Translations under genes and position numbers: made by a program
Notes under the pieces: model-generated
Told to the model about the DNA's origin: nothing
The model's input: the letters and a program-made list of their open reading frames with translations, nothing else
The model's database searches: none
Part shown: one piece after another, positions 45,550 through 61,966 of the stretch
How the letters are laid out: each line of letters begins with the position of its first letter
Position numbering within the stretch: position 1 is the stretch's first letter
Assembly (NCBI RefSeq): GCF_014195655.1
Contig: NZ_JACICD010000006.1
Span: forward strand, 124,001 to 188,000
DNA from: Ancylobacter tetraedralis
Lineage (GTDB): Bacteria > Pseudomonadota > Alphaproteobacteria > Rhizobiales > Xanthobacteraceae
Direction: 5' to 3'
Length of the DNA stretch: 64,000 bases

Positions 45550-45585
45550 GACGCGGCTCCCGCGCCGGCTGTCGCTGCGCTCAAG

Positions 45586-45627
45586 TGGTCTGCCCCAATA
45601 TCCAGAATGGCCCTTAGCTCCAGACCA
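45586..45627. promoter_or_regulatory. Putative MocR operator in the divergent promoter region
   Basis: Between the divergent MocR and enolase-family genes, TCCAGA occurs twice as a direct repeat (45601-45606 and 45619-45624, 18 bases apart). These are framed by an inverted pair TGGTCTG (45586) and CAGACCA (45621). MocR-type regulators commonly bind direct repeats; the role is inferred. Confidence 0.4.
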
Positions 45628-45696
45628 TTTACGACCGAATATCCGCCATGCCTTCGGCTTTGCCAAGGTGACCACTCGCGGGAAAGCGTCAGCCTC

Positions 45697-46803
45697 ATGA
45701 AGATCAAACGTCTGGAAACCTTCTCCAATCGCGCCGTCGGCTTCGTGCGGGTGACGCGCGAGGACGGCCGTCAGGGTTGGGGGCAGATGTCGACCTACAA
45801 TGCCGACATCACCGCCCAGGTTTTCCACCGCCAGATCGCCCCGCATGCGCTGGGCGCGGAGGCCGACGACATTCGCGGGCTGGTGGAGCGGATCCCCGAG
45901 CGCGAGCACAAGTTCCCCTGCTCCTACCTGTTCCGCGCGCTCGGCGGGCTCGACACGGCTCTGTGGGACCTGCGCGGCAAGGTCGAGGGCAAGAGCGTGT
46001 GCGAGCTGCTCGGCGGCACGCCCCGCCCCTTCCCGGTCTATGCCTCCAGCATGAAGCGCGGCGAGATCACCCCCGAGGCCGAGGCCGAGCGGCTGAAGCG
46101 CCTGCAGGGCGAGTGTGGCTACACCGCCTTCAAGTTCCGCGTCGGCCGGGAATGCGGCCACGACCTCGACGAATGGCCGGGCCGCACCGAGGCGATCGTG
46201 CCGATGGTGCGCAAGGCGCTGGGCGACGAGGCGCGGCTGCTGGTGGACGGCAACAGCGCGTATTCGCCGGGCAAGGCGATCGCGGTCGGCCGCTTTTTGC
46301 AGGATCACGGCGTCGTCCATTTCGAGGAGCCCTGCCCCTATTGGGAGCACCACTGGACGCGGGAGGTGACCGCCGCGCTCGACCTCGACGTGACCGGCGG
46401 CGAGCAGGATTGCGACCTGATGCTGTGGCGCTACATGATCGAGAACCGCGTGGTCGACGTGGTGCAGCCGGACGTGAGCTATGTCGGGGGCGTCGAGCGC
46501 TTCCTGAAGGTGGCGCAGATGGCGGCCGAGGCCGGCATCCAGGTGACGCCGCATTCCGCCAACCAGCTCATGGTGACGTGCTTCACCCTGCACATCATGG
46601 GCGCGTTGGCCAATGCCGGCCCCTATGTCGAATTCTCCATCGAGGGCGCGGACTACTACCCCTGGGAAGCGGGCGTGCTGCGCAACCCCTTGCAGGCCAG
46701 GGACGGCAAGGTCGAGATCCCCGCCGGGCCCGGCTGGGGGATGGAGATCGAACCCGCCTGGCTGGAAGCCGCCACCTATCAGGTGAGCGAGGTGGAGGCA
46801 TGA
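45697..46803 (+). CDS. Enolase-superfamily enzyme (mandelate racemase/muconate lactonizing type)
   Basis: A 368-residue TIM-barrel enzyme. The capping domain begins [17 protein letters not shown]. Barrel residues are visible: KFRVGR (KxR in place of the usual KxK), metal ligands D in [11 protein letters not shown] in HFEEPCPYW and E in GGEQD. They are followed by D in [11 protein letters not shown] and H in VTPHSANQL. This pattern suits a sugar-acid dehydratase or related mandelate racemase subgroup enzyme. It overlaps the aldehyde dehydrogenase gene by 4 bases and is divergent from the MocR regulator. The specific substrate is not deducible. Confidence 0.88.
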
Positions 46804-48326
46804 GCGCCTCCCTGGCCAACCCCACCCTCGCCGCCCCCACCCTCGCCGAGGGCATGGCCGAGATCCGCGCCACCGGCACGCTCACCGGTCTGCCGCGCGA
46901 TCATTTCATCGCCGGCCGCTGGACCCCGCCGGCCAGCGGCGCCCGCATGGACAGCGCCGATCCCGGCCGCGGCGCGCCCTTCGCCGCCTTCGCCAATGGC
47001 GACGCCGAGGACGTGGACCGCGCCGTCACCGCGGCCCGCGCCGCCTTCACCGGGGCGTGGGGCGACGCCTCCCCCGCCGAGCGCGGCCGCGTGCTCCAGC
47101 GCATGGCCAGCCTCCTGCGTGCCGAGGCGGACCGCTTCGCGCTGGTGGAGTGTCTCGACAGCGGCAAGCGGCTGAGCGAGGCGCAGGGCGATGTGCGCGG
47201 CGTCATCCGCGCCTTCGAATATTATGCCGGCGCTGCCGACAAGCTGGAGGGCGCCAGCCTGCCGCTGGGCCGGAATTATCTGGGTTTCACCCTCGACGAG
47301 CCGGTCGGCGTGTGCGCGCAGGTCATCCCGTGGAACTACCCGCTCTCCACCGCCGCGCGCGGCATCGCCCCGGCGCTGGCGGCCGGCTGCGCGATCGTCG
47401 CCAAGCCGGCCGAGCAGACCCCCTTCACCGCGCTGATGCTGGCCGAACTCGCCACCCGCGCGGGACTGCCGGACGGCGCGCTGAACGTTGTCACCGGCAC
47501 CGGCGCGCGGGCCGGCGCGCCGCTCGTCGCCCATCCCGGCATCCATCACATCACCTTCACCGGCTCGGTGCCGACCGGTATCCGCGTGATGCAGGCGGCG
47601 GCGGAAAACGTCACCCGGCTGGTGCTGGAACTCGGCGGCAAGTCGCCGCTGGTGGTGCTGGCCGATGCCGATCTCGACATCGCGCTGGAGGGCGTGCTGG
47701 AGGCGATCTACGAGAATGCCGGGCAGATCTGCTCGGCCGGCTCGCGCCTCGTGCTGGAGCGGCCGATCGCCGATGAATTCCTGGCGCGGCTCGTTGCCCG
47801 GGTCGAGAAGCTGCGGCTGGGCCATGGGCTCGACGCCGTCGATGTCGGCCCGGTCAACTCCGCCCTGCAACTTGAGCGCATCGACGCCCATGTGCGGCGC
47901 GCCGAGGCGGCCGGCAACGGGATCCTCGCCGGCGGCGGCATCGTTCATCCGGCCGGGGCGGAAGGCGGCTGGTTCTTCGCGCCCACCATCGTTTTGGCGC
48001 GCGGCCTCGACGATCCGATCGTGACCGAGGAGATTTTCGGCCCGGTGCTGGCGGTTCAGATCGTCGGCGACCTCGATGAAGCCATCCATGTCGCCAACGC
48101 CACCGAGTTCGCGCTGGTGGCCGGCATCTACACGGCCAGTTTCGACAAGGCGCAGCGCTTCGCCCGGCGGGTCGACGCGGGGCAGGTCTACATCAACGAG
48201 TATTTCGCCGGCGGCATCGAAGTCCCGTTCGGCGGCAACCGCAAATCCGGCTTTGGCCGGGAGAAGGGCATGGAAGGCCTGCGCAGCTATTGCCGCACCA
48301 AGAGCATCGTCGCCCGCCTGCGCTGA
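46800..48326 (+). CDS. Aldehyde dehydrogenase (betaine-aldehyde-dehydrogenase-like)
   Basis: A 508-residue NAD(P)-dependent dehydrogenase starting at an ATG that overlaps the previous stop (ATGA). Features are the substrate-entrance IPWNYPL, catalytic Glu in [11 protein letters not shown], catalytic Cys in [11 protein letters not shown] and the C-terminal [15 protein letters not shown]. The layout recalls BetB and gamma-aminobutyraldehyde dehydrogenases, which fits an amine-derived aldehyde from the neighbouring importer and GMC enzyme. It ends the plus-strand pair and is followed by a bidirectional hairpin. Confidence 0.92.
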
Positions 48327-48381: not shown

Positions 48382-49836
48382 TCAGAGCGCGGCGAGTTCG
48401 GTGACGAACTTGGTGCGCAGGAAGGCGTCGAGCCCCTCAATGCCGCTTTCCGAGCCGTAGCCGGATTCATTGACCCCGCCGAACGGCGTCTCCGGCGTGG
48501 AGACCGCCATGTGGTTGACGCCCACGAGACCGGCGTCGAGCGCTTCCTCGGTCCGGGCGGCAAGCGCGCCGGAGCGGGTGAAGACGAAGGAGGCCAGCCC
48601 GTAGGGCAGCGCGTTCGCCCGGGCGATGACGTCGTCGAAATCGGCGAACGGGGTGATCGGCGCGATCGGGCCGAACGGCTCGCTCGACATAATCGCCGCC
48701 GTCTCCGGCACGTCGGCCAGCACGGTCGGGGTGAAGAAATGCCCCTGATTGCCGATGCGACGGCCGCCGAGCTTCAATTCGGCACCCTTGGCCACGGCAT
48801 CGCCGACCAGTTCCTCCATCACCGCCAGCCGGCGGCGGGCGATCATCGGGCCCATCTGGATGCCGGGCTCCAGGCCGTTGCCCACCTTGAGCACCGAGGC
48901 AAGCTCGACGAAGCGCTCGACGAAGGGCTGGTAGAGCGCTTCGTGCACGAAGAACCGCGTCGGCGAGGTGCAGACCTGCCCGGCATTGCGGAACTTGAAG
49001 GCGACCAGGGTCCGCGTGGCCAGATCGAGATCGGCGTCGCCATGGACGATGACCGGCGCATGGCCGCCCAGCTCCATCGTGCAGCGCTTGAGCGTGCGCG
49101 CGGCGAGGCCCTGCAGTACCTTGCCCACGGCGGTCGAGCCGGTCAGCGTCACCGCCTTCGGGATCGGCGAGGCGAGCAGCACCTCGCTGACATGCGCGGG
49201 CACGCCGAACACGACATTGAGCACGCCCGCCGGCAGCCCCGCCTCCTGGAAGCAGCGGGCCATCGCCACCGCCGTGCCGGGGGTTTCCTCGGCCGGCTTG
49301 ATGATGATCGAGCAACCCGCGCCGAGCGCGCCGGAAATCTTGCGGATCACGTTGGATGCCGGGAAATTCCAAGCCGCGAAGGCCGCGACCGGGCCGACCG
49401 GCTCCTTCAGCACGAGCTGGCGCACATTGGGCATGCGGGCGGGCACCACGCGGCCATAGGCGCGCTTGCCTTCCTCGGCATACCAGCGCGTGGCATCGGC
49501 CGCGAACTGCACTTCCGGCACCGCCTCGGCGAGCGGCTTGCCGTTCTCCAGCGTGAGAATGCGCCCGATCTGCTGCTTGCGCGCCTCGATCAGCTCCGCC
49601 GCCTTCATCATAATGACGTAACGCGCCTGCGCGGTCATCGACTTCCACACCTTGAAGCCGCGCTGGGCGGCCTCGAGGGCGCGGGCGAGATCGGCGTCGG
49701 AGGCGTGCGGCACGGTGGCGAGCGCTTCGCCGGTGGCCGGATTTTCCAGCACTTCGCTGGCGCCGTCGGAGCCCTGGCACCATTCGCCGTCGATCAGCAG
49801 TTCGATCTTCTCGTCGTAAAGCGCGGATACGCTCAT
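48382..49836 (-). CDS. Aldehyde dehydrogenase (succinate-semialdehyde/2-oxoglutarate-semialdehyde type)
   Basis: A 484-residue enzyme. The ATG six bases after an AGGAG box is chosen; another ATG two codons upstream is too close to it. Features are the AAWNFPASN substrate channel, catalytic Glu in MELGGHAPVI, catalytic Cys in NAGQVCTSPTR and the C-terminal PFGGVNESGYGSE. The SSADH-like pattern suits oxidation of a dicarboxylate semialdehyde. It is the last gene of the ten-gene minus-strand catabolic operon, 44 bases after the epimerase gene. Confidence 0.93.
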   Translation of the reverse strand: MSVSALYDEKIELLIDGEWCQGSDGASEVLENPATGEALATVPHASDADLARALEAAQRGFKVWKSMTAQARYVIMMKAAELIEARKQQIGRILTLENGKPLAEAVPEVQFAADATRWYAEEGKRAYGRVVPARMPNVRQLVLKEPVGPVAAFAAWNFPASNVIRKISGALGAGCSIIIKPAEETPGTAVAMARCFQEAGLPAGVLNVVFGVPAHVSEVLLASPIPKAVTLTGSTAVGKVLQGLAARTLKRCTMELGGHAPVIVHGDADLDLATRTLVAFKFRNAGQVCTSPTRFFVHEALYQPFVERFVELASVLKVGNGLEPGIQMGPMIARRRLAVMEELVGDAVAKGAELKLGGRRIGNQGHFFTPTVLADVPETAAIMSSEPFGPIAPITPFADFDDVIARANALPYGLASFVFTRSGALAARTEEALDAGLVGVNHMAVSTPETPFGGVNESGYGSESGIEGLDAFLRTKFVTELAAL

Positions 49837-49880: not shown

Positions 49881-50876
49881 TCAGCGGCAGAGGAAGCCGT
49901 CGGGCAAGGGATCGCCGGCGGCAAGCACGAAGCGGTGCTCGCCGGTGATGTGGGCGAGGCCCACGATGTGCGGGCGGATGGCGTCGCTGCGCCCCTCGAT
50001 CGCCATCGCCGTGGCGGTGAAATCGACATCGAGGATGTTGCGCGTGCGGATGGTCTGGCCCGTCATGATCGCGCCGCGCGCCACCAGCTGGGCCAGCCGG
50101 GCGGAAGAGCCGGTGCCGCAGGGCGAGCGGTCGAACTTGTTGGCCTCCAGCACCACGAGCTGCCGGCTGACGAGCCCGTCCTCGTCCTGCTGTGTCGCGT
50201 GGAACAGGATGCTGTCGATCGGCTCCATCGCGCCCGGCACCTCGCCGGCCACGATCCTTGCGTTGAGCCGCGCCTTCAGCGCCGCCCCGATCGCCATGGC
50301 ATGGGAGACGCCGCGCGGTTCCAGCACGATGCCGGCGGCCTCGGCCGGCACCAGCCCGTACCAGTTGCCGCCCCAGACGACATCCGCCGACACGGTGAGC
50401 CCGCCCGCCGACACCGCGACATCGGTCGCGACCACGCGGGCCGGCACGTTCTCGAAGGTCACCGCCGCCACCGTACCGCCCCGGCGGGTGACGTGCACGG
50501 TGACGATGCCGGCCGGCACCTCCAGCGTGAAGGTGCTCTCCGGCGCATCGGACGGACCGATCAGGCCCATATGATCCAGCGTGACGGCCAGGCCGATCGT
50601 CGCGTGGCCGCACATTTCGAGATATTTGTAGCTGCCGAGGAAGAAGGCGCCGAAATCGGCGACCCGGCTCTCGGTCAGGATCACGCCGACCATCGCCGCA
50701 TGGCCGCGCGGCTCATGCAGCAGGAAGGTACGCAGCGGATCGAAGCGGGCGCGAAAGTCGTCCCGCCGCACCGCCACGCTGTCGCCGTGCAGCACCGGCA
50801 CGCCGCCGGTGACGACGCGGGTCGGGTGGCCCGCCGTATGGCTGTCAATGGTGGCGATCCAGCGCCGTTCGGCCAT
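49881..50876 (-). CDS. Proline racemase/4-hydroxyproline epimerase family enzyme
   Basis: A 331-residue PLP-independent racemase from the ATG of MAERRW, with a GGGAG box nearby; a GTG six codons upstream is an alternative. Both catalytic cysteines are present: C89 in MCGHA and C253 in DRSPCGTG. DSHTAGHP and HEPRGH are conserved substrate-loop motifs. The two-cysteine arrangement indicates epimerase/racemase rather than dehydratase chemistry. In hydroxyproline catabolism such an enzyme converts trans-4-hydroxy-L-proline to cis-4-hydroxy-D-proline. It lies after the GMC gene in the operon. Confidence 0.9.
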   Translation of the reverse strand: MAERRWIATIDSHTAGHPTRVVTGGVPVLHGDSVAVRRDDFRARFDPLRTFLLHEPRGHAAMVGVILTESRVADFGAFFLGSYKYLEMCGHATIGLAVTLDHMGLIGPSDAPESTFTLEVPAGIVTVHVTRRGGTVAAVTFENVPARVVATDVAVSAGGLTVSADVVWGGNWYGLVPAEAAGIVLEPRGVSHAMAIGAALKARLNARIVAGEVPGAMEPIDSILFHATQQDEDGLVSRQLVVLEANKFDRSPCGTGSSARLAQLVARGAIMTGQTIRTRNILDVDFTATAMAIEGRSDAIRPHIVGLAHITGEHRFVLAAGDPLPDGFLCR

Positions 50877-50890
50877 GGCCGTGTTCTCCC

Positions 50891-52588
50891 TCACTGCCCG
50901 GCCTTGATGGCATCGGCGATCTTCTCGCCAGCCATCACGGTGGTGAGCATGGTGTTGCCGCTGATGACCGAGGGCATGATCGAGGCATCGACCACGCGCA
51001 GCCCCTCGACGCCGATGACGCGCGCATGGCTGTCCACCACGGCGCGCCGGTCGTCAGGACGGCCGATCCGGCAGGTGCCGGAGGCGTGCCAGCTGCCGCA
51101 GGCATTCTCGCGGATCCACGCGCGCAACTGCTCGCGGTCACCCATCATCTCGCCCGCCTTCAGGCCGGGGGTGATGATTTTCTCGATCATCAGTTTGCGC
51201 GACAGCGGGCCGGTACCCATGATGCCGGCGGCCATCAGCGTCATGAACCAGTTGGCGCGGCTGACCGCGCCCAGCTTGCGCACGCGCTCGGAGAAGGTGG
51301 CGGGGAAGATGTTCTCGATCACCCCATCCATCGCCGGATCGTTCACCACGCGCCACAGCCGGTGCATGCCGTCCTCCAGCCGCGCGAGGTCACGCTCGTC
51401 CGACAGCTGGCGGAAATTGACGAACGGCGCCGTCTCGGGCGACGCACCGGCCAGGCGCACCTCGCCGGTGGAATAGGGCCGGTTGACGCAGACGATGATG
51501 GAGGCGAGCCGCCGGCCGAGCGGATGCCAGGCCGCGCGGTTGGAGGGCAGCACGAACATGTCGCCCGGCGTCGTCTCCGGCAGGCCGGAGGTGTAGCGAT
51601 AGCCCATCTGGATATGCCGGCGCTGGCTGGCCGGCAGGCGGGCGGATTTGGGCAGATAGGCGGCGAAGGCCACCATCGGGTGGTCCTGCAGGTTCTGCCC
51701 GACACCCGGCCGGTCGGACCGCACGGCGATGCCGAACTCCTTGAGATGCTCGGCCGGGCCGATGCCCGCGCGCATCAGCTGTGCCGGGGTCTGCAGGGCG
51801 CCGGTGGAGAGGATCACCTCGCGCGCCCTCAATGTCATCGGCCCGCGCGGGCCCACCGCCTCCAGCCCGACCACGCGGTGGCCCTCGAACAGCAGTTCGG
51901 TGAGCTCGGTCTCGGCGAGGATGGTGAGGTTCGGCCGCGCCCGCACCTCACGGGTAAGGTAGGCGCGGGCGGTGGAGACGCGCTGGCCATCGACATTGTT
52001 GATGGTCATCGGGAAATAGCCGTCGTCGAACACGCCATTATGGTCGGCGATGTTGCGCACGCCCTGCTTGTCCAGCACCTTCGCGACCGTCTTGGCGAAG
52101 GGCGACCAGTCTTTTTCCGCGATGCGGCGCACCGGCAGCGGGCCGTGGCTGCCGTGCAGCTGGCTGTCGCCGAAATCGAGGTCGGTCTCCAGCTTGCGGA
52201 AATAGGGCAGGACGTCGTCCCAGCCCCAGCCTTCGGCGCCGTCCGCGCGCCAGTGGTCATAGTCCCACGGCACGCCGCGAAAGGCGAACTGGCCGTTGAT
52301 GGAGGTGCCCCCGCCCATCACCCGCGCCTGCTCATAGCGCCGCCCTTCCGCGCCCGGCTGCGGGTCGGAGAGGTGAACCTTCAGGTTCTGCCAGTGATAG
52401 AAACGGTTGAAATAGGCGACGATGGGATAGGCATCGAGCGTATCGGCCGGCTCGGCGCCGGGCGGCGTGTCCTTGCCGGCCTCGATCAGCGCCACCTTGA
52501 GGTTGGACGCCTCGGACAGCCGGCTGGCCAGCACGGCACCGGCCGCGCCGCCGCCGACGACGATATAGTCAAAGGAATGCTGGGACAT
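50891..52588 (-). CDS. GMC-family FAD oxidoreductase
   Basis: A 565-residue flavoenzyme. The FAD-binding motif is YIVVGGGAAGAVLASRLSE at the N-terminus. The GMC signatures are ARVMGGGTSINGQFAFRG and LSTGALQTPAQLMRAGIG. The active-site region is SWHASGTCRIG, and VVDASIMPSVISGNTM is the C-terminal block. It is only distantly similar to the other GMC protein in this window. Within a hydroxyproline-like operon it stands where a D-amino-acid oxidase would be expected, so it may oxidise an alcohol group of the substrate. It is 9 bases after the aldehyde dehydrogenase gene. Confidence 0.9.
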   Translation of the reverse strand: MSQHSFDYIVVGGGAAGAVLASRLSEASNLKVALIEAGKDTPPGAEPADTLDAYPIVAYFNRFYHWQNLKVHLSDPQPGAEGRRYEQARVMGGGTSINGQFAFRGVPWDYDHWRADGAEGWGWDDVLPYFRKLETDLDFGDSQLHGSHGPLPVRRIAEKDWSPFAKTVAKVLDKQGVRNIADHNGVFDDGYFPMTINNVDGQRVSTARAYLTREVRARPNLTILAETELTELLFEGHRVVGLEAVGPRGPMTLRAREVILSTGALQTPAQLMRAGIGPAEHLKEFGIAVRSDRPGVGQNLQDHPMVAFAAYLPKSARLPASQRRHIQMGYRYTSGLPETTPGDMFVLPSNRAAWHPLGRRLASIIVCVNRPYSTGEVRLAGASPETAPFVNFRQLSDERDLARLEDGMHRLWRVVNDPAMDGVIENIFPATFSERVRKLGAVSRANWFMTLMAAGIMGTGPLSRKLMIEKIITPGLKAGEMMGDREQLRAWIRENACGSWHASGTCRIGRPDDRRAVVDSHARVIGVEGLRVVDASIMPSVISGNTMLTTVMAGEKIADAIKAGQ

Positions 52589-52597
52589 TTTTTCAGG

Positions 52598-54073
52598 TCA
52601 GCCGTGATTATGCCAGACGGTCTTGAAGCGCAGGAAGCCCTCAAGCCCGGCGCGCCCCATCTCCTTGCCGAAACCCGAGCCGGCAAAGCCGCCCTGCGGG
52701 GTGGCGAAATCGGGCTGGCGGCCATGGCCGTTCACCCACACCGTGCCGGCAGAGAGGCGGGAGGGCAGCGTCATCGCCTTGGCGGCGCTGGCGGTGTAGA
52801 CGCTGGCGGCCAGCGCGTAGCTGGGATGGTTGGCCATGGCGATGGCCTCGTCCTCGTCATCATAGGCATAGACCGACAGGACCGGGCCGAAGAACTCCTC
52901 GCGGAATCCGACGGAACTGTCGGGCACGCCGGCCAGCACGGTCGGCTCGAAATAGGCGCCGCGGTTGATCCCGGCATAGCGCGAGCCGCCCGTCAGCACC
53001 CGCGCTCCATCGGCAACCGTCTGCTCGACCATGCGGTCGATCCGCGCCGCCTGCTTTTCGCTGATGATCGGCGGCAGCGTCGCGCGGCTGTCCCAGGTGG
53101 GGCCCGGCACGCGGGCCTGCGCCAGTGCCACCACGCGCTCGGTCAGGTCGTCGAAGATCCGGCGCGGCGCGATGAGCCGCGTGCCGGCCGTGCAGACCTG
53201 CCCGGCATTGGCGAGGAAGCCGCCGGCGATGGTGGCGGCGAGCGCATCAAGGTCGTGCGCGTCGTCCATCACCAATTGGGGCGTCTTGCCGCCCAGTTCC
53301 AGCGTCAGCGGCTTGGTGCCGGTCATGGCGGCATCCGCCATCACCCGCGCGCCGGTGGCGGAGGAGCCGGTGAAGGTGATCTTTCCGATCAAGGGATGGC
53401 GCACCAGCACTGAACCGGTCTCGCCGGCGCCCTGCACCACGTTGAACAGGCCGGCCGGAAGGCCCGCCTCGATCGCCAGTTCCGCGATCATCACCGCCGA
53501 GGACGGGGTGAGTTCGGAGGGCTTCAGCACCACGGCATTGCCCGTCACCAGCGCCGGGGCCGACTTCCAGATGGCGTTGATCGCCGGGAAGTTGAACGGC
53601 GCGATGGAGGCGATGACGCCATAGGGCTCGGGCGTGAGGAAGGTGGTGCCGCTATTGGCGCCGGCCACCAGCGTGCCCTCGATCTTGTCGGCCCATTCGG
53701 CGAAATAGCGCACGGCGCCCGCCGCCCGCACGAGGTCGCGGGTCACCACGTCGGCGATCGGCCGGGTCGTGGTCGCCGCTTCCAGTCGGGCGAGGTCGAG
53801 GCGTCGTGCGTCGATGAGGTCGGCCCACGCCTTCAACACCCGCGCCCGCTCGGTCGGCGTGGCGCCGGCCCAGCCGGAGGCGGTGCGGGTAGCGGCGGCG
53901 AGGCGCACCGCCTCGTCCACCAGCGCCGCATCGCCCGCGCGGATGGTGCCGATCGGCGCCCCGTCCGAGGGACGCACCAGCGCGATGGCCGCGCCGTCGC
54001 CAGCGACGCGCCGCCCGCCGATCAGGTGATCGGTGATGGCGGCAACGCCGTTCGGGTCGAAATCATGGGACAT
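52598..54073 (-). CDS. Aldehyde dehydrogenase
   Basis: A 491-residue enzyme from the ATG of MSHDFDPNGVAAITDHLIGG, with AGGAG upstream. Features are APFNFPAINAIWK, catalytic Glu in LELGGKTPQLV, catalytic Cys in NAGQVCTAGTR and GGFAGSGFGKEMG near the C-terminus. It differs clearly from the other two aldehyde dehydrogenases here and resembles the phenylacetaldehyde/betaine-aldehyde branch. It lies between the second racemase-family gene and the GMC gene, and probably oxidises the aldehyde made by the GMC enzyme. Confidence 0.92.
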   Translation of the reverse strand: MSHDFDPNGVAAITDHLIGGRRVAGDGAAIALVRPSDGAPIGTIRAGDAALVDEAVRLAAATRTASGWAGATPTERARVLKAWADLIDARRLDLARLEAATTTRPIADVVTRDLVRAAGAVRYFAEWADKIEGTLVAGANSGTTFLTPEPYGVIASIAPFNFPAINAIWKSAPALVTGNAVVLKPSELTPSSAVMIAELAIEAGLPAGLFNVVQGAGETGSVLVRHPLIGKITFTGSSATGARVMADAAMTGTKPLTLELGGKTPQLVMDDAHDLDALAATIAGGFLANAGQVCTAGTRLIAPRRIFDDLTERVVALAQARVPGPTWDSRATLPPIISEKQAARIDRMVEQTVADGARVLTGGSRYAGINRGAYFEPTVLAGVPDSSVGFREEFFGPVLSVYAYDDEDEAIAMANHPSYALAASVYTASAAKAMTLPSRLSAGTVWVNGHGRQPDFATPQGGFAGSGFGKEMGRAGLEGFLRFKTVWHNHG

Positions 54074-54098: not shown

Positions 54099-55106
54099 TC
54101 AGACGCCGGTAAGGCGGAAGCCCTGCTGGAACGGGTCGTGGGGATCGAGGAAGAAGTTGAAGCTGCCGGTGAGGTAGGCCGAGCCGGTGACGGTGCAGCG
54201 GATCGCCGGCAGGTCGCCGACGGAGGCCTCGCCATGGATCTCGCCGGTGAACACCGTGTCGAGAATGCCGGCATGGCGGAACGTGTCGCCCACCGCCAAT
54301 TCGCCCTTGCCGTGCAGCATCGCCATGCGCGAGGCGGTGCCGGTGCCGCAGGGCGAGCGGTCGATCACGGTCGGCGGGCAGACCACGACATTCTTGCCGT
54401 CGAAGCGCACGCCGTCTCCCTCGCCGATGATCTCGATCTGGTAGATCTCGTTCACATGCGCGAGCGTGGGGTGCTGGACGGGAATGTCCTTGAGCCCCGC
54501 GCGCAGCTCGGCGGCCGCGCTCACCAGCGCCCAGGCATTGTCGGTGGTGAGGTCGAGACCGAGGTCCGAGCCCTTGACGATCAGGTAGAAATCGCCGCCG
54601 AAGGCGATGTCGGCGCGCACCTTGCCGAAGCTCTTGGTCTCCACCATCACGTCGCGCTGGTAGAGGAAGCTGAGCGGCATCTCCAGCGTGACGGAGACGG
54701 CGCGGCCGTTCTCCACCTTCACCCGCGCCGGCACCACGCCGGCCGGCGTGTCGAGGCGCACCAGCGTCTCGCCTTCCTGCGCGGTGATGTAGCCGGCTTC
54801 CACCGCAATGGTGGCGACCGCCATGGCGCAATGGCCGCACATGGGCGGATAGGTATCGGGCTCAAGAATGAGCATGCCGATATCGGCATCCGGCGAGCAG
54901 GCCTCGGTGAGCACGGCGGCCGGCATGTTGAACGAGCCGCGCGGCTCGAACAGCACGAGCTGGCGCAGCCAGTCGCGGCTCATCAGGTCCGCGCGCTTCT
55001 CCACCATGGTCTTGCCGCGGATGGGGCCGAAGCCGGAGGTGATGAGGCGCAGCGGGCAGCCGGCGGTGTGGGAATCGATGCCCTGGATGATACGGGTGGA
55101 ACGCAT
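54099..55106 (-). CDS. Proline racemase family protein (hydroxyproline epimerase/dehydratase group)
   Basis: A 335-residue protein. Both active-site cysteines are present (C90 in MCGHC, C253 in DRSPCGTGT), with DSHTAGCPLR and FEPRGSFNMPAA as the loop motifs. The PRGSFN form recalls the proline racemase/trans-3-hydroxyproline dehydratase branch. Typical dehydratases, however, replace the second Cys by Thr, so racemisation or epimerisation is expected. It begins 3 bases after the DapA-like gene. Having two distinct members in one operon implies two stereocentres or two substrates. Confidence 0.88.
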   Translation of the reverse strand: MRSTRIIQGIDSHTAGCPLRLITSGFGPIRGKTMVEKRADLMSRDWLRQLVLFEPRGSFNMPAAVLTEACSPDADIGMLILEPDTYPPMCGHCAMAVATIAVEAGYITAQEGETLVRLDTPAGVVPARVKVENGRAVSVTLEMPLSFLYQRDVMVETKSFGKVRADIAFGGDFYLIVKGSDLGLDLTTDNAWALVSAAAELRAGLKDIPVQHPTLAHVNEIYQIEIIGEGDGVRFDGKNVVVCPPTVIDRSPCGTGTASRMAMLHGKGELAVGDTFRHAGILDTVFTGEIHGEASVGDLPAIRCTVTGSAYLTGSFNFFLDPHDPFQQGFRLTGV

Positions 55107-55109
55107 GGT

Positions 55110-56018
55110 TCACGCAACCTTCTGGATGGTGGCGGCGACGTCGGCGTCCGTGAGGATCTTCGCCACGCTGGCCATCTGGGCGTCGGTGAAGGGCAGCAGC
55201 GGCTCGCGCGGCAGTCCGACCGGCTGGCCGAGGCTGTTCATCGTCGCCTTGATGCCGGCATAGAAGCTGCCGGTCTTGAAGCAGCGATAGATGGCGAACA
55301 GAGCCGGCTCCAGAGCATCCGCCGTGGCGCCATCGCCGCTCGCGCAGGCGTCGAAATAGCGGCGCACGAGGCGGCCGGAGAGCTGGTGCGCCATGGCGAC
55401 CACGCCGACCACACCGTGCGGCAGGGAGGAGCGGATCATCGTCTCATAGCCGACGAACACCGCCAGCTCGCCCTTCACCTTCTGGCACAGCTCGGCCACC
55501 TGCTGGATATCGGCCGAAGAATCCTTGATGGCGACGACATTCGGCACTTCGGCGAGGCGCGCGACGAGATCGGGCGTGATGTTGACGCCGATGCGCGCCG
55601 GGCTGTTGTAGAGCATCACCGGCAGGCCGGTGGCCGCGCAGAGGCGGCGGTAGAAATGCTCGGCCTCGCGCAGGTCGGGCTTGGCATAGACCGGCGGCAG
55701 CGCGAGGATGCCGTCGCATCCCGTGGTCTCGGCGGCCTTGATCAGTTCGAGCACCACGTCCGTCTGCAGGTCGGAGACGCCCGCCAGCACGGGAACGCGG
55801 CCGGCGGCCACCTTCACCGTGGCCTCGAACAGCTTCACCCGCTCCGCGACGCTCATGGCGTAGAATTCGCCGGTCGAACCGCACACGATGAGACCGTCGG
55901 CACCGCTGGCGATGTTGGCCTCGGCGAGCGCCTCGAAGCGGGGGAAGTCGATCGCGCCCTCGGGCAGGAAGGGGGTAACCAGGACGCTGTGAATGCCCTG
56001 CCAACTGGTCTTCGTCAT
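55110..56018 (-). CDS. DapA-family aldolase/deaminase (possible pyrroline-4-hydroxy-2-carboxylate deaminase)
   Basis: A 302-residue TIM-barrel class I lyase. It has GxxGE-type GSTGEFYAM, the catalytic Tyr in MLYNSPARIG and the Schiff-base Lys in VVAIKDSSADI. True dihydrodipicolinate synthases are usually encoded alone, whereas this gene sits among racemase-family and dehydrogenase genes. In hydroxyproline pathways a DapA-family enzyme deaminates pyrroline-4-hydroxy-2-carboxylate to 2-oxoglutarate semialdehyde, which is the best guess here. It is 126 bases downstream of the ABC ATPase gene, the largest gap in the operon. Confidence 0.85.
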   Translation of the reverse strand: MTKTSWQGIHSVLVTPFLPEGAIDFPRFEALAEANIASGADGLIVCGSTGEFYAMSVAERVKLFEATVKVAAGRVPVLAGVSDLQTDVVLELIKAAETTGCDGILALPPVYAKPDLREAEHFYRRLCAATGLPVMLYNSPARIGVNITPDLVARLAEVPNVVAIKDSSADIQQVAELCQKVKGELAVFVGYETMIRSSLPHGVVGVVAMAHQLSGRLVRRYFDACASGDGATADALEPALFAIYRCFKTGSFYAGIKATMNSLGQPVGLPREPLLPFTDAQMASVAKILTDADVAATIQKVA

Positions 56019-56144: not shown

Positions 56145-56966
56145 TCAGGTTGACAGCAGCGGCCGCATGAGCTCGGCCGTGGCGTGGAAGCGGTTCACGA
56201 AGGTGCGCACCCGCTCGTTCTCCGGATGGAGCAGCACTTGCTGCGGCGTGCCCTGCGCGGCGATGGCGCCCTGATCGAGGAACACGACCCGCGTGGCGAC
56301 TTCGAGCGCGAAACCCAGTTCGTGCGTCACCACCAGCATGGTCATGCCCTCGCGAGCGAGCGTGATCATGGTGTTCAGCACCTCGCCGACCAGCTCGGGA
56401 TCGAGCGCCGAGGTGGGCTCGTCGAACAGCATCATGGCGGGGCGCATGTTGAGCGCGCGGGCGATCGAGACACGCTGCTTCTGCCCGCCCGAGAGCCGGG
56501 TCGGCATCCGGTCGGCGAAATCGGCCATGCCGACCTTGGCCAGCAGGTCCATCGCCCGCTCCCGGTTGGTGCGATCGTCCTCGCCCAGCACGGTGCGCGG
56601 CCCCTCCATCACATTGGCGAGCACGCTCATGTGCGGAAACAGGTTGAACTGCTGGAACACCATGCCCACGCGGCTGCGCATCGCCCAGATGTCGCGACCC
56701 TTGAGGTGGACATTGTCGCGCCCGTCCGGCGAACGGTCGTAGATCGGCTGGCCGGCAATGGCGATGCGGCCCGAGCTCGGCTGGTCGAGCAGATTGACGC
56801 AGCGCAGCAGCGTCGTCTTGCCCGAGCCGGAGGAGCCGAGCAGCGCCACCACCTCGCCCGGGCGCACGTCAAGGTCGATGCCCTTGAGCACCTCGTGCGA
56901 GCCGAAGCACTTGCGGATATCGCGGAGTTCGACGAGCGGGTCTGCGGTGGACTGAACGGGGATCAT
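56145..56966 (-). CDS. Polar amino-acid ABC transporter ATPase
   Basis: A 273-residue ATPase of the GlnQ/HisP type. Walker [10 protein letters not shown] lies near residue 45, the signature [15 protein letters not shown] near 160, Walker [19 protein letters not shown] near 180, and the switch His in [11 protein letters not shown]. The short length without a TOBE domain fits amino-acid importers. It follows the permease by 15 bases and completes a binding-protein/permease/ATPase set. Confidence 0.94.
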
Positions 56967-56981: not shown

Positions 56982-57629
56982 TCAGTGGTTGCGCAGCTCA
57001 AGCCGGCGGGCGAGATAGTTCGACGGCACCAGGATGATCAGGAAAATGATGCCGACCGCCGTGTAGACTTCCATCGGCCGGTACGTGAAGGATGAGATGT
57101 AGCTCGCCTGATAAAGCAGATCCGGAATAGTGATGACCGACAGAAGCGTGGTATTCTTCATCTGGATGATGGTCTGACCGGCCAGCGGCGGGATCATCTG
57201 GCGGAAGGCCTGCGGCAGGATGATGCGATACATGGCCTGCAGCGGCGACATGCCGAGCGCCTTGGCCGCATCCCCCTGCCCATGGTCGAGCGCCTGAATG
57301 CCGGCCCGCAGGATCTCGGCATAATAGGCCGCGCCATAGAGGCTGAGAGCGAGGATGCCGGCCGCCTCGCGGCTGATCCGGATGCCGGCGAAGATCGGCA
57401 GGGCGTAGTAGCTCCACAAGAGCCAGACCAGCAGCGGCACGTTGCGGAAGAATTCGACGAACAGCATCCCGGCCACCCGCGTGACGCGCAGCGGCGAGAG
57501 TTGGGCCAGCGCGATTACCAGGCCGATGACGAGCCCCAACAGGCAGGTAATCACCGTATAGCGCAGGGTGACGAGCAGTCCCCAGCCGAGCAGATCGAGA
57601 TTCTGGGTGATAACTGACCAGTCGAACAC
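56982..57629 (-). CDS. Polar amino-acid ABC transporter permease
   Basis: A 215-residue inner-membrane permease (HisM/GlnP type) starting at GTG. It has about five helices; the first lies in LDLLGWGLLVTLRYTVITCLLGLVIGL. The EAA loop is DAAKALGMSPLQAMYRIILPQA, and FFRNVPLLVWLLWSYYALP is typical of the family. Only one permease gene is present, so the channel is probably a homodimer. Confidence 0.92.
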   Translation of the reverse strand: MFDWSVITQNLDLLGWGLLVTLRYTVITCLLGLVIGLVIALAQLSPLRVTRVAGMLFVEFFRNVPLLVWLLWSYYALPIFAGIRISREAAGILALSLYGAAYYAEILRAGIQALDHGQGDAAKALGMSPLQAMYRIILPQAFRQMIPPLAGQTIIQMKNTTLLSVITIPDLLYQASYISSFTYRPMEVYTAVGIIFLIILVPSNYLARRLELRNH

Positions 57630-57706: not shown

Positions 57707-58579
57707 TCAGAAGCTGAATTCGGGCGGCAGCATGGACAGGTCGATACCGTGCTTCTCGAAGGCCTGCTGCAGCTTGCCCTGGGCAAGGCCGAGGGCGCGC
57801 TGCTGGTTGACCCAGTTGGTCAGCCAGTTCTCGTAGCCCTCATTGCCCTCCTCGCGGCGCACGCCGATCGTGGCGGGGTTGCGCAGCATCGGGGTGGGCA
57901 GCGTGATCTGGCCCTTGATCTGCTTGGCGATCTCGACGGCGTCGAAAATGGCGACGATCATCACGTCGGCGCGGCCGGACTGCAGTTCCATCACGCCGAG
58001 CGGACGATCCTCGACCGGGGTGATGGTGGCCTTCGGGGTGAGCGCTTCCGCCACGACCTGCATGGTGCCGCCCTTCTGCACGACAATGCGCACCGACGGG
58101 TCGTTGAGCTCCTTCCAGGTGGTCTTGGTGAAGCCCGGCTTGGTGACGATCGCCCAGGCATCCGTGAACAGCGGGACGCTGAGATAGTCGACCACGAGCC
58201 CGCGCTTGGGATTGGGATTGAGACCGAAGGCGATGTCGATCTTGTTGGCCTGGAAGTCGGCGGCAAGGTTGCCCCAGGTGGTTTCCACCGGAACCGCCTT
58301 CACGCCGAGAATGGTGGCGATGTCGTTGGCCCAGTCCATGTAGAACCCGCCCCAGGCGCCGGTCGCGCGATCACGGATATAGCCGGGCTCCTCGCCCACC
58401 ATGACCGGCACGCGCAGTTCGCCGCTCTTGCGGATGCGGTCGAGCACCAGATTGGGATCGGCGGCCATGGCCTGGTAGCTCGACAGCGCCATGATCACGA
58501 AAGCCGCCACCGCCATGACGAGGCGGTGGAGCGAGAAGCGGGCCGTCGATTGCGGCCGGACATTTGCGAGGCTGAGCAT
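57707..58579 (-). CDS. Periplasmic solute-binding protein, family 3 (amino-acid type)
   Basis: A 290-residue binding protein with a signal sequence (LHRLVMAVAAFVIMALSSYQAMAA, cleavage near residue 40). The mature part starts VLDRIRKSGELRVPVMV. AWGGFYMDWANDIATILGVKAVPVETTW is broken by loops, and VVQKGGTMQVVAE and LQSGRADVMIVA are typical ligand-site regions. It would bind the amino acid or imino acid that enters this pathway. It lies 75 bases downstream of the regulator gene on the same strand. Confidence 0.9.
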   Translation of the reverse strand: MLSLANVRPQSTARFSLHRLVMAVAAFVIMALSSYQAMAADPNLVLDRIRKSGELRVPVMVGEEPGYIRDRATGAWGGFYMDWANDIATILGVKAVPVETTWGNLAADFQANKIDIAFGLNPNPKRGLVVDYLSVPLFTDAWAIVTKPGFTKTTWKELNDPSVRIVVQKGGTMQVVAEALTPKATITPVEDRPLGVMELQSGRADVMIVAIFDAVEIAKQIKGQITLPTPMLRNPATIGVRREEGNEGYENWLTNWVNQQRALGLAQGKLQQAFEKHGIDLSMLPPEFSF

Positions 58580-58654: not shown

Positions 58655-60544
58655 CTATCGCAGGAAGCCGCTGCCCAGGGGGTCGCCCGCTTCCTGAATG
58701 AGCGTGGCCATGCCCTTGAGATGCGCGCGTCCGGTGATCCGGGTGGTGACGGCCACGGCACCGCCGGCGCCGTGGGTGGCGGCGGAAACCTCGCCGGTGA
58801 GCCGCCCGCCGAACAGGCTGACGGCGTCGAGCCGCGTGCCGGGTGCCGCCGTGCCGCGCGCCGTGTTGAGGGCGAGCAGGCAGGCGAGGCCGGCAACGCC
58901 GGGCGAACGGTCGAACTTCTGGCGGTCGATCGCCAGAAACTGGCGCGACAGGCCGGCCTCGTCCGGCGCGTGGAACAGCACAGACTCGACGGCCGGCTGC
59001 ATCCCATGCCGGCGCGGCAGGGTCTCGTTCAGCTGGCTGCGCAGTCCCGCGCCGATGGCGAGCAGGTTCTCGATCTCATTAAGCGTGAGCGCCACGCCAT
59101 CGACCTCCGCGTCGATCAGCGCGTAGCAGCCGCCGCACAGCACGATGGCGACGTTGAACGTGCGCCCGCCCAGCACGACCGCGCGGCCGGGCTCCACCAC
59201 GATGGCAGGGGGCATGTCGAGCGCGATCGCCTCGGCGTCGCCCTCCACGCCCACCTGCACGGTGAGGATGCTGTCGGGCACCTCGATGGTGAAGCGGGGG
59301 GTATGGGAGAGCCGCCCGAGCGCCCGCAGCGCGGCGGTATAGCCCATCACCGCGTGGCCGCAGAAGCCGGGATAGCCATAGGACGAAATGAAGAAGGCGC
59401 CGAAATCGGCCGCCGTGGACGCCACCGGCACCAGGCCGAAGGCACCGGAATGGCCGCGCGGCTCGTGCAGCAGCATCGGGCGCAGCGCGTCGTAGCGCTC
59501 CGCGAACTGGCGCGCCTTGCCGGCGACGGTCTCGGCATCGAGCCCTTCCAGCGGCTCGATCAGGATATGGGTGGGATGGCCCTCGGTATGGGTCTCGATC
59601 ACCCGGAAGGTGCGCGCGCCCTCGGGCAGTTCGAGGCTCAGCGCGCCCTCCCCCAGCCCGGCGCCGAGACCCAGCCGACGGTCGCTCTTCTCGAAGCTCA
59701 TGGCCGAGAGGCGGCTGCTGTCGGTGTTGATCCACAGCACCTTGGCCGGCACGGTGCCGGGATTGCGCCAGCGATGGGCGATGCGGCTGTTGAAATACGC
59801 CCCGTCGCCGGGACCCAGCACCTCGACGTCCCGGTCGGCCAGCGCCAGTTCGAGCGCGCCTTCCAGCACGTAGATGAGTTCCTCGCCCTCATGGGCGTAG
59901 AAACCGTCGCTCTCGCGGTCGGGATCGATCGTCCAGACCTCGGCGTCCATCAGGCGCTGGGAGACGGTGAGCTGCTCGATCGCCACGCCCGGCCCGAACG
60001 AGCCGACGATGCGGCCCTGGCCGCGGCGGACCACCGGAAAATCGCGCCCCTTGGTGCCGCCCAGCAGTTCCGCCAGCGTGCGGCCGAACACTTCCGCCAG
60101 CGCGTTCAGCCGGGCCGGCGAGAGAAAGGCGACGCCGCGCTCGAACATGCTCAGATGCGAGGTGGCGATGTCGGTGCGCTCGGACACTTCGCGCAGCGAG
60201 AGCCCCGCCTCCTGCCGCAGGCTGCGCACCCGCGCGCCCAGATTGTTGAAGGCGACGACGGATGCCGCCTCCTCGTCCACCGCGGCGGGGGGCGCCTGTT
60301 CTTCCTCGCTGTCGAGCAGCCGGCGGATGACCGACAGGCTCTGCCCGTCGACCCGGCGCATGCGGTCGATACGCCGCACCCGGTCGATATGCGCCTCGCC
60401 ATAGGAGCGGTGGCCGCTCTCGGATTTCTGCGGCGACAGCAGCCCCTGGCCTTCCCACGAACGCAGCGTCGAGACCGGAATGCCCGTGACCTTCGCCACA
60501 TGGCCGATCGAGTAGGGAAAGCGGTTATCGGCGGTCTTGGCCAT
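58655..60544 (-). CDS. Transcription regulator: MerR HTH + XRE HTH + cupin + degenerate proline-racemase domain
   Basis: A 629-residue four-domain protein. Residues 11-77 form a MerR helix-turn-helix (IGHVAKVTGIPVSTLRSWE, HRSYGEAHIDRVRRI). Residues 101-160 form an XRE-type helix-turn-helix (RVRSLRQEAGLSLREVSERT). Residues 183-275 form a cupin (HEGEELIYVLEGALEL). Residues 312-629 form a full proline-racemase fold (ETHTEGHPTHI, HEPRGHSGAFG). The first catalytic Cys is kept (C395, GFCGHA); the second is lost, with DRSPCGTG reading DRSPGVAG (G549). It is probably a sensor for the operon's substrate and autoregulates the operon, being its first gene. Domain calls are firm; function is inferred. 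Confidence 0.88.
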   Translation of the reverse strand: MAKTADNRFPYSIGHVAKVTGIPVSTLRSWEGQGLLSPQKSESGHRSYGEAHIDRVRRIDRMRRVDGQSLSVIRRLLDSEEEQAPPAAVDEEAASVVAFNNLGARVRSLRQEAGLSLREVSERTDIATSHLSMFERGVAFLSPARLNALAEVFGRTLAELLGGTKGRDFPVVRRGQGRIVGSFGPGVAIEQLTVSQRLMDAEVWTIDPDRESDGFYAHEGEELIYVLEGALELALADRDVEVLGPGDGAYFNSRIAHRWRNPGTVPAKVLWINTDSSRLSAMSFEKSDRRLGLGAGLGEGALSLELPEGARTFRVIETHTEGHPTHILIEPLEGLDAETVAGKARQFAERYDALRPMLLHEPRGHSGAFGLVPVASTAADFGAFFISSYGYPGFCGHAVMGYTAALRALGRLSHTPRFTIEVPDSILTVQVGVEGDAEAIALDMPPAIVVEPGRAVVLGGRTFNVAIVLCGGCYALIDAEVDGVALTLNEIENLLAIGAGLRSQLNETLPRRHGMQPAVESVLFHAPDEAGLSRQFLAIDRQKFDRSPGVAGLACLLALNTARGTAAPGTRLDAVSLFGGRLTGEVSAATHGAGGAVAVTTRITGRAHLKGMATLIQEAGDPLGSGFLR

Positions 60545-60551
60545 TCTTAAT

Positions 60552-60584
60552 CTACATATGAGTTGTAGAAATCACGAACATATG
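60552..60584. promoter_or_regulatory. Putative operator repeats upstream of the regulator gene
   Basis: Two copies of ACATATG (60554-60560 and 60578-60584) lie 24 bases apart. Between and around them is an inverted pair CTACA/TGTAG (60552-60556 and 60564-60568). They sit between the -10 element and the ATG in an AT-rich island, where a repressor or autoregulator could act. Confidence 0.4.
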
Positions 60585-60587
60585 TGG

Positions 60588-60616
60588 ACGATATGTCGAT
60601 TTATTGAACGCGTCAA
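60588..60616 (-). promoter_or_regulatory. Sigma-70-type promoter of the ten-gene catabolic operon
   Basis: On the minus strand, TTGACG (60616-60611) and TATCGT (60593-60588) are separated by exactly 17 bases. The predicted start lies about 35-40 bases before the regulator ATG at 60544. No comparable promoter was noticed further down the operon. Confidence 0.6.
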
Positions 60617-60832: not shown

Positions 60833-61966
60833 TCAGCCCTTCACGACCGGGCTATGGCTCTGGCGCAGCGCCTTCATCAGCGTGTCGCCGACATCGAGGT
60901 GACCCTGCACGATCCCCGGCGGGGTGAGCGCCATCCACTGGTTCAGCGAGACGTCCTTGTACACGCCATTGCTGAAGACGTTCAGCACCAGAACCGGCTC
61001 GTCGCCGATATTCTCGATGTAATGCGCCAGCGTCTTCGGGACATAACCGACATCACCGGCCACATAGTCGAAGGTTCGCGCATTGTTGACCGCATCGAAC
61101 ACGGTCATCCGCGCCTTTCCGGAGACGTAATACTGAATTTCATCGGCATCCGGATGCCAGTGGATCTCGCGCATGCCGCCCGGCTCCAGCTCGATGAACA
61201 GCGCTGCCATGTTGGTGACGCCGAAGGTCTTCGAATCGATGACTTTGGTCGAACCGCCGGGGAATTTGTTTGCCGGCACCTGCGAGGCGCGGAACACATA
61301 TTTGTCCGTCATCGACGCCGCGCCGAGCTGCCGGCGCGCCTCTTCGATGGGGCCGGGAACGGGCAGGCGGAAAATGTACTTTTCCTCCGCCGGAATGCCG
61401 TCGAACGCGCTCTCGGGCACGCCGAAATTCTTGGCCAGCACCTCGCGCGGAGTATGGGCGAACAATTCGGTGATCAGCAGGGTCTGGTTCTCGGAGAAAT
61501 TGCCGTCATTGAAGACGAGCAGGAATTCCGTGCCCTCCTCAAGCCCCTGGATCGCATGGGGAAAGCCGGCCGGGGCCAGCCAGAGGTCGCCCGGGCCGAG
61601 GTCTTCGACCAGCGTCTGGCGGTTCTCGTCGACGAGGTAGAAGCGCACGCGGCCCTTCAGGACATAGGCCCATTCGGCTTCCTTGTGCCAGTGCAGTTCG
61701 CGCACCACGCCGGGCCCGAGCCGCATGTTGACGGTGGCGAGTTCCTTCAGCGCTCCGAGTTCGCGGATCGTCACCTCGCGCGCCCATCCACCGTCCTCCA
61801 GACGGTTATGTGCCATGGAGAAGGGGAATTTGAGGTTCGGCAGCCCGCCATGGTCGGTAGCCGGCGGAATGAGGATATCGGGATTCTGCGCCTCGATCTC
61901 GAGGTTGCGCGGGCCGGCAATGTCCGCGCCACGGGTGCCGACGATCGGCTGCTTCAGATCACTCAT
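60833..61966 (-). CDS. oxdC: Bicupin, oxalate-decarboxylase-like
   Basis: A 377-residue protein with two cupin domains. Domain 1 metal ligands are H92, H94, E98 (ELHWHKEAEW) and H137 (FPHAI). Domain 2 ligands are H269, H271, E276 (EIHWHPDADE) and H315 (LAHYI). The domain-1 lid reads SENQ (158-161), close to the SENS lid of Bacillus OxdC whose Glu is needed for decarboxylation. It would split oxalate to formate and carbon dioxide using manganese. No signal peptide or Tat motif is seen, so it is cytoplasmic. The ATG has an AGGAG box. It is separated from the catabolic operon by a terminator. Confidence 0.8.
   Translation of the reverse strand: MSDLKQPIVGTRGADIAGPRNLEIEAQNPDILIPPATDHGGLPNLKFPFSMAHNRLEDGGWAREVTIRELGALKELATVNMRLGPGVVRELHWHKEAEWAYVLKGRVRFYLVDENRQTLVEDLGPGDLWLAPAGFPHAIQGLEEGTEFLLVFNDGNFSENQTLLITELFAHTPREVLAKNFGVPESAFDGIPAEEKYIFRLPVPGPIEEARRQLGAASMTDKYVFRASQVPANKFPGGSTKVIDSKTFGVTNMAALFIELEPGGMREIHWHPDADEIQYYVSGKARMTVFDAVNNARTFDYVAGDVGYVPKTLAHYIENIGDEPVLVLNVFSNGVYKDVSLNQWMALTPPGIVQGHLDVGDTLMKALRQSHSPVVKG

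Follow-up and report, generated by a model that had tools for sequence, protein, structure and literature searches.

A regulator gene that heads a ten-gene catabolic operon in Ancylobacter tetraedralis encodes a MerR HTH, an XRE HTH, a cupin and a proline-racemase fold in a single chain, and its racemase domain groups with one of the two free-standing racemases of the same operon (rac49; the other is rac54; Table 1). We propose, with a probability of roughly 0.7, that the racemase fold would sense the operon's substrate and that the regulator would control its own operon locally, a proposal built on comparing sequences across the genomes that carry the fusion. Positions given without a locus name refer to the window, that is, the whole 64,000-nucleotide stretch of DNA that was analysed.

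A four-domain regulator found in 18 genomes

Translation of 58655-60544 (-) gives 629 residues with zero internal stops. Pfam profiles match MerR_1 at residues 11-79 (71.7 bits against a cut-off of 21.6), HTH_3 of the XRE type at 106-160 (45.1 bits; the XRE HTH spans about 102-160), Cupin_2 at 203-272 (62.1 bits) and Pro_racemase at 315-627 (156.4 bits, profile positions 1-324 of 325; the domain spans about 311-629). By its N-terminal MerR_1 the protein is a MerR HTH protein, it holds MerR, XRE and cupin domains in the order of MerR-XRE-cupin proteins, and all four families were matched in each of the 13 members of a fusion alignment (A1). In an AlphaFold2 model (mean pLDDT 75.5, pTM 0.52) the racemase domain is mostly confident, its ten-residue blocks lying mostly at 77-94 with dips to 61 at residues 361-370, 66 at 511-520 and 68 and 45 at the C-terminus. 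The low-confidence parts are the linkers and the EPRGH stretch (362-365 below 50), and the signal path is therefore not readable from the model. When the model was compared with the PDB by Foldseek, the best 38 matches were all proline-racemase-family chains (TM-score by target 0.76-0.89; 0.84 for 6j7c); as modelled, the racemase fold is complete.

The four-domain fusion occurs in 18 distinct genomes (window included, copies merged), and the 17 other fusions are 49-98% identical to the window protein. With the genome of the window counted each time, a protein search at E <= 1e-60 detected fusions in 6 of 198 family genomes, all from the window's genus (6 of the 12 genus genomes listed), and in 8 of 297 genomes at order level, 2 of 385 at class level and 2 of 398 at phylum level; a second search of the order at E <= 1e-100, with another fusion as query, gave 9 of 397. 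The scan of named genomes relied on two peptide patterns, taken from the XRE and cupin regions, and so misses fusions differing there; its 35 loci comprise 11 full-length fusions and 24 matches to the N-terminal part. The named fusions come from three Ancylobacter species (80-98%), A. polymorphus, Xanthobacteraceae 501b, Hyphomicrobiales UR115, Oricola, Labrenzia, Hoeflea, Aureimonas and one Alphaproteobacteria MAG, hosts that we take to belong, all of them, to Hyphomicrobiales. On plasmids no full fusion was found, none of the 752 plasmid records with a partial match covering 80%. Long open frames around racemases at three loci (L072, L081 and L086), considered as further fusions, are by eye GC-rich open frames.

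The first-pass annotation of this DNA had read four domains in a single chain, had suggested a domain search and a search for the same architecture in other genomes as checks, and had named a frameshift or sequencing error joining separate genes as what would undo the reading. The intact open reading frame, the Pfam matches and the same full-length architecture in 18 genomes bear the single chain out and speak against such a join.

The regulator heads a conserved operon

On the same strand the regulator gene is followed by SBP-permease-ATPase-dapA-rac54-ALDH-GMC-rac49-ALDH48, with gaps of 3-126 bases in the window. The regulator lies directly 5' of SBP-permease-ATPase-dapA-rac54-ALDH-GMC, in the same order, in all 18 fusion loci, and the whole order from the regulator to ALDH48 is colinear in 11 of the 11 named loci, where ALDH48 runs into the end of the fetched stretch; the Aureimonas fusion (L030, 10001-11839) heads the same complete operon. 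Six further contexts contain rac49 in five cases and a close ALDH48 in four, so that, with the window, 17 of 18 fusion operons have rac49 and 16 have ALDH48. The genome G282 is without both, and a different ALDH, 37% identical to another ALDH of the window, follows its operon (L058, G282 C15, about 2877-4354); in G280 the last place is held only by an ALDH of 37% identity.

Table 1. Coordinates of the regulator, its operon, the predicted promoter elements and related stand-alone proteins
Feature	Position	Strand	Remarks
Regulator gene	58655..60544	-	629 aa; heads ten-gene operon
SBP_bac_3 solute-binding protein, amino-acid-type ABC transporter	57707..58579	-	
ABC transporter permease (BPD_transp_1)	56982..57629	-	
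ABC transporter ATPase (ABC_tran)	56145..56966	-	
DHDPS-family enzyme (dapA-type)	55110..56018	-	
rac54, proline-racemase family	54099..55106	-	both Cys present
Aldehyde dehydrogenase	52598..54073	-	
GMC oxidoreductase	50891..52588	-	
rac49, proline-racemase family	49881..50876	-	both Cys present
ALDH48, aldehyde dehydrogenase	48382..49806	-	last operon gene; start approximate
TTGACG, -35-like hexamer	60611..60616	-	TTGAC in 18/18 upstream regions
TATCGT, -10-like hexamer	60588..60593	-	17 nt after -35-like hexamer
Box 1, TTCAATAAATCGACATATC, putative operator	60590..60608	-	within -35/-10 spacer, overlaps -10
Box 2, degenerate direct repeat of box 1	60560..60578	-	30 bases downstream; weak here
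ATCTACATATG, candidate inverted part-copy of box	60550..60560	+	overlaps box 2 edge
Stand-alone MerR-XRE-cupin examples	L032-L038; plasmid loci L097 (8001-8777), L098 (8001-8777)		

A separate cluster in the same genome contains two racemases, DHDPS, DAO, an Asp_DH-type dehydrogenase and a GntR-FCD regulator, and it resembles the hydroxyproline pathway gene sets described in two papers (PMC4113996, PMC6608401). The window operon has a GMC oxidoreductase and two ALDHs, with no DAO-type gene among its ten genes, and it probably handles a proline-like compound other than that of the hydroxyproline-type cluster. Within the operon, rac54 is the best- or nearly best-conserved gene (82-99% in the named loci); it reads EPRGSFNMPAAV where rac49 has EPRGHAAMVGVI, and because of this replacement its substrate may be unusual.

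The racemase domain derives from the rac49 lineage

In its own genome the fused domain is 39% identical to rac49, 26% to rac54 and 26-31% to four other racemases. A maximum-likelihood tree was computed from 75 rows (18 fusion domains, 16 rac49, 18 rac54 and 23 others), after leaving out the rac49 of L021 and the rows of L072, L081 and L086 (free-standing, open frames >560 aa), 18 further copies of fusion loci, seven identical rows and R49_L062, a copy of the window gene. The fusion domains form one clade (100/99) with a free-standing racemase of the genome G314 as its sister (98/89); rac49 is the sister group of this pair (100/99), and rac54 lies far off. Inside the clade, the G282 and G280 fusions (100/98), which carry both catalytic cysteines, separate from the remaining 16 fusions, which are united on a branch of their own (100/99). 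The groups stay in a second tree without the Cys motif columns and without five long rows (four long free-standing rows and Aureimonas, left out additionally), where the fusions and the G314 row join at 97/83; the program warned for both trees that long branches meet.

Thus the view of the first-pass annotation, which had found the motifs around C395 closer to those of the operon epimerase at 49881-50876 than to the other paralogue, had suggested recruitment of a pathway enzyme and had called for a phylogeny against both, agrees with the identities and with both trees, in which the domain comes from the rac49 lineage. Recruitment from rac54 is not favoured, its rows forming a separate, fully supported clade in both trees. 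Joining the two-Cys fusions with rac49, as a separate fusion or gene conversion would have it, gave an AU p of 0.0128 against that arrangement, which is not overwhelming for a hypothesis set after the first tree.

In G314 the free racemase lies between a GntR-FCD regulator and SBP-permease-ATPase, the place of the fusion elsewhere, an arrangement to be expected had a regulator gene become fused with the leading enzyme gene of an operon of this kind. This locus (L092, G314 C12, 703-11696) encodes the GntR-FCD regulator, the free racemase, the same ABC genes, two ALDHs and a GMC oxidoreductase, and also carries HpcH/HpaI-family and DAO-family genes; it looks like an unfused counterpart of the operon.

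Catalytic cysteines are lost in most fusions while the putative ligand-binding residues are kept

As the first-pass annotation had noted, and as the translation reads, the window protein keeps C395 in FCGH and has DRSPGVAG for DRSPCGTG, so that G549 replaces the second Cys. Across the 18 fusions the second catalytic position is Cys in two (G282 and G280) and Gly in 16; the first is Cys in 17 and Gly in Aureimonas, whose fusion has neither Cys (MGNH, DRSPGILG), which leaves 15 fusions with Cys/Gly and one with Gly/Gly. In the tree set the distinct free-standing rows number 57; they are rac49 and rac54 relatives from one order, not a superfamily survey, and read DRSPCGTG in 54 cases, DRSPTGSG in three and DRSPG in none, and two of them (L008 and L077) have Ser at the first position. 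With the rows labelled by hand, two changes suffice in the second tree to explain the state of the second position: one to Cys/Gly within the fusions and one to Cys/Thr in the free enzymes. Further sets of 5, 3 and 397 genomes gave no additional two-Cys fusions; the one extra fusion from them (L106), near-identical to the Labrenzia row (620 matching residues), reads DRSPGVGG.

Other residues have been retained throughout. H319, T320, H323, E361-H365, H397 and D545-P548 are invariant in 18 of 18 fusions, the Cys-less Aureimonas protein included, among 49 invariant positions of 319 in the domain. In proline racemase superfamily proteins, according to PMC4113996, the prolyl nitrogen is coordinated by an Asp and a His (the latter replaced by Ser in some members), the carboxylate is held by helix N-termini, and liganded structures are closed. 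Matched by motif spacing, we infer H397 and D545 to be the published prolyl-nitrogen ligands, and their retention fits a sensor role. The window protein thus combines a full fold and matches to the prolyl-nitrogen ligands with only one of the two catalytic residues of an active racemase or epimerase.

The same source describes Cys/Cys and Ser/Cys epimerases, dehydratases whose single base occupies the first position while Thr occupies the second, and clusters without one or both Cys (PMC4113996). Racemization by the window protein is unlikely, because the second Cys is lost and mutation of a single key catalytic Cys abolishes hydroxyproline epimerase activity (PMC1964878). Since superfamily dehydratases work with one base and Thr, the protein may carry out a one-base, dehydratase-type reaction; it has the first base of trans-3-hydroxyproline dehydratases, its second residue is Gly, not Thr, and it scores 116.7 bits on the NCBIfam dehydratase model NF045511, whose cut-off is 540. 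The description of the enzyme as inactivated in the first-pass annotation therefore holds for the loss of the second catalytic Cys in the window protein; it is too strong for a family in which two of 18 fusions keep both cysteines, and in a superfamily in which one-base dehydratases exist.

This raises the question of a bifunctional trigger enzyme, with epimerization by the two-Cys fusions or one-base dehydration by the Cys/Gly fusions and with regulation dependent on turnover, which we consider unlikely. G282 and G280 have the cysteines for it, C395 is kept in 17 of 18 fusions, and one-base dehydratases with Thr are known; moreover, G282 has no rac49 after its GMC gene, so that the fused domain could supply that step, and no rac49 orthologue appears among the four matches of this genome (best besides the fusion 35%; 14 of the 22 candidates scored). 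However, Aureimonas lacks both cysteines, the CGTG turn has become GVAG, GVTG and the like and not the TGSG of three of the 57 free-standing rows, G280 has MCAH as its first motif with rac49 also present, and the effect of a single Cys mutation on hydroxyproline epimerase again counts against turnover. It is possible, and we offer it only tentatively, that the family stands at several stages of conversion, with deep members that would be bifunctional epimerase-regulators and later members that would be sensors, the pocket being kept throughout; if so, the G282-type chain replaces the free-standing epimerase, and later lineages lost one and then both cysteines.

The racemase domain is under selection and was added to a widespread module

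The racemase domain is under purifying selection. Comparing the window with six Ancylobacter-like genomes gave the domain a dN/dS (Nei-Gojobori) of 0.20-0.30, and four pairs at closer range gave 0.07-0.19; rac49 is similar in matching comparisons (0.22-0.32 and 0.11-0.20), and the values are lower for the N-terminal part of the regulator (0.12-0.16 and 0.02-0.09) and for rac54 (0.04-0.08). For the racemase domain, two comparisons over longer distances yielded 0.39 and 0.45, at dS values above 1. That the fusion is an annotation or assembly artefact or a decaying pseudogene, for which the lost catalytic residues are the only point, is refuted by its conserved architecture: the same full-length protein is present in 18 genomes from different assemblies with low dN/dS, and we regard the chance of this as practically nil.

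The domain nevertheless evolves faster than the rest of the chain, being 40-50% identical to ten more distant fusions as against 52-73% for the N-terminal domains, and mean column conservation is 0.65 as against 0.79 for the cupin, which has 42 invariant columns of 115 compared with 49 of 319. The bound compound may therefore vary, or constraint may be looser.

The first-pass annotation had considered two DNA-binding domains in one chain to be unusual, a point that we must withdraw, because MerR-XRE-cupin proteins without a racemase are common. About residues 6-287 alone were matched in 25 of 40 plasmid rows listed, and MerR_1, HTH_3 and Cupin_2 were found in all four stand-alone proteins scanned. 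These proteins, annotated as MerR family, align with residues 11-274 of the regulator at about 32-40% in the same domain order; unlike the regulator, they have no racemase domain, are roughly 260-290 residues long and lie in other operons. The racemase domain is the addition and the paired HTHs are not special here. Stand-alone regulators of this type are widespread, occurring in Alpha- and Betaproteobacteria, Rubrobacter and Paracidobacterium. An amino-acid ABC transporter adjoins the gene in one of the two plasmid examples inspected, and no racemase or operon-like gene set was found near it in seven loci (L032-L038), some of them short. A pre-fusion state, in which a MerR-XRE-cupin gene would stand beside a free racemase, was thus not met in these loci, and the regulator in G314 is of the GntR-FCD type. 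A search of open-access papers found nothing relevant on MerR-XRE-cupin regulators.

The stand-alone proteins presumably sense through their cupin, and this, together with the higher conservation of the cupin in the fusions, would suit a regulator in which the cupin senses while the racemase domain has a structural or dimerizing role. We hold this to be quite improbable, since H397, D545-P548 and E361-H365 are invariant even where the catalytic Cys is gone, which a mere dimerizer would not need, and ancestry from the epimerase lineage of the operon itself is hard to explain without a link to the ligand.

Candidate operator boxes and a model of local control

Promoter prediction upstream of the regulator gene gave one sigma-70-like promoter (mean of 0.1 in shuffles), whose two hexamers stand 17 nt apart and have 9 of 12 consensus matches in all. 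A box 1-like site, TTCAAxAxATCxACATAC, follows TTGAC in 18 of 18 upstream regions, which are otherwise hard to align; eight of these promoters come from Ancylobacter-like genomes and do not count as independent cases. On the forward strand, the match ranking next after box 1 is box 2, at a distance of 28-30 bases, in 17 of 18 regions, and in 16 when both strands are considered; in L031 a reverse-strand site outscores it, and in Aureimonas nothing lies at this spacing. With a matrix built from box 1 sites alone, box 2 scores 3.7-10.8 and box 1 29-33 in Ancylobacter-like promoters. The 17-base core of box 1 has one exact match in its own 5.03 Mb genome and, with two mismatches, three matches compared with one for a backwards control; up to 3 mismatches in the window are reached by 28 of 100 shuffles, and the weight of box 1 therefore comes from conservation across loci, not from rarity within the window. 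The bicupin gene just upstream on the same strand (60833-61966) is of the oxalate decarboxylase family (TIGR03404).

We envisage that a MerR-XRE-cupin regulator gene was joined to a rac49-lineage racemase gene at the 5' end of the operon, and that its product would bind the direct repeats of box 1 and box 2 over its own promoter, as their footprint and position suggest. The racemase fold would bind the operon substrate, or the epimer made from it by rac49, and would close as the enzymes do; closure would change DNA binding, and the operon would be transcribed. Control would then be a ligand-relieved autorepression, and its sign is less sure than the sensor role and the local control. MerR-type operators have promoter spacers of 19-20 bp, with activation by DNA distortion, whereas the spacer predicted here, by consensus match only, is 17 nt. 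Because box 1 falls within and across a predicted promoter whose 17-nt spacer is of normal length, occlusion relieved by ligand appears likelier than MerR-type activation of a long-spacer promoter.

Relation to known regulators

Sensors derived from enzymes are known in gene control, and GabR/MocR proteins offer the parallel. As reported in PMC6522883, the ligand closes the aminotransferase fold of GabR with two sites bound, GabR/MocR proteins are autoregulatory, and their aminotransferase-like activity is not essential for regulation. Like the regulator described here, they combine an HTH with a whole enzyme fold, which in their case binds a pathway substrate and changes shape. The regulator further recalls GabR in the direct repeats that lie over its promoter at a distance of some three helical turns, in its place as first gene and in its C-terminal enzyme fold. 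In contrast to the GntR HTH and aminotransferase fold that characterize GabR/MocR proteins, it has MerR and XRE domains, a cupin and a proline-racemase fold and no PLP, and several states of catalytic loss occur within one racemase-fusion family.

With the proline racemase superfamily (4-hydroxyproline epimerase, proline racemase and trans-3-hydroxyproline dehydratase) the regulator shares the full-length fold, the FCGH/MCGH-like motif, DRSP, EPRGH and the matches to the prolyl-nitrogen ligands, and it differs from these enzymes in being fused behind two HTHs and a cupin and in the Cys/Gly (15) or Gly/Gly (1) states. HypR, a GntR-FCD protein, controls a racemase/DHDPS-type imino-acid operon (PMC6608401); it resembles the regulator in the type of operon governed, but is an ordinary GntR-FCD protein without an enzyme domain, and a GntR-FCD gene likewise adjoins the separate racemase-DHDPS-DAO cluster of the genome studied here. 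We found no paper on a racemase-fused regulator in the open-access literature, most subscription journals lying outside this coverage; the combination of an HTH with an enzyme fold is known, and the racemase fold, the domain set and the graded catalytic loss appear to be new.

The operon itself contains a member of the donor enzyme's lineage, and the existence of relatives with two Cys, one Cys or none makes the path from enzyme to sensor testable. In addition, the regulator offers a way into a catabolic operon with two racemases and might serve as the scaffold of a biosensor for proline-like compounds. A MocR-type (GntR-aminotransferase) regulator gene is also encoded in the window, by the 3' end of the operon (44044-48326), together with an MR_MLE enolase-superfamily gene and an aldehyde dehydrogenase-like gene.
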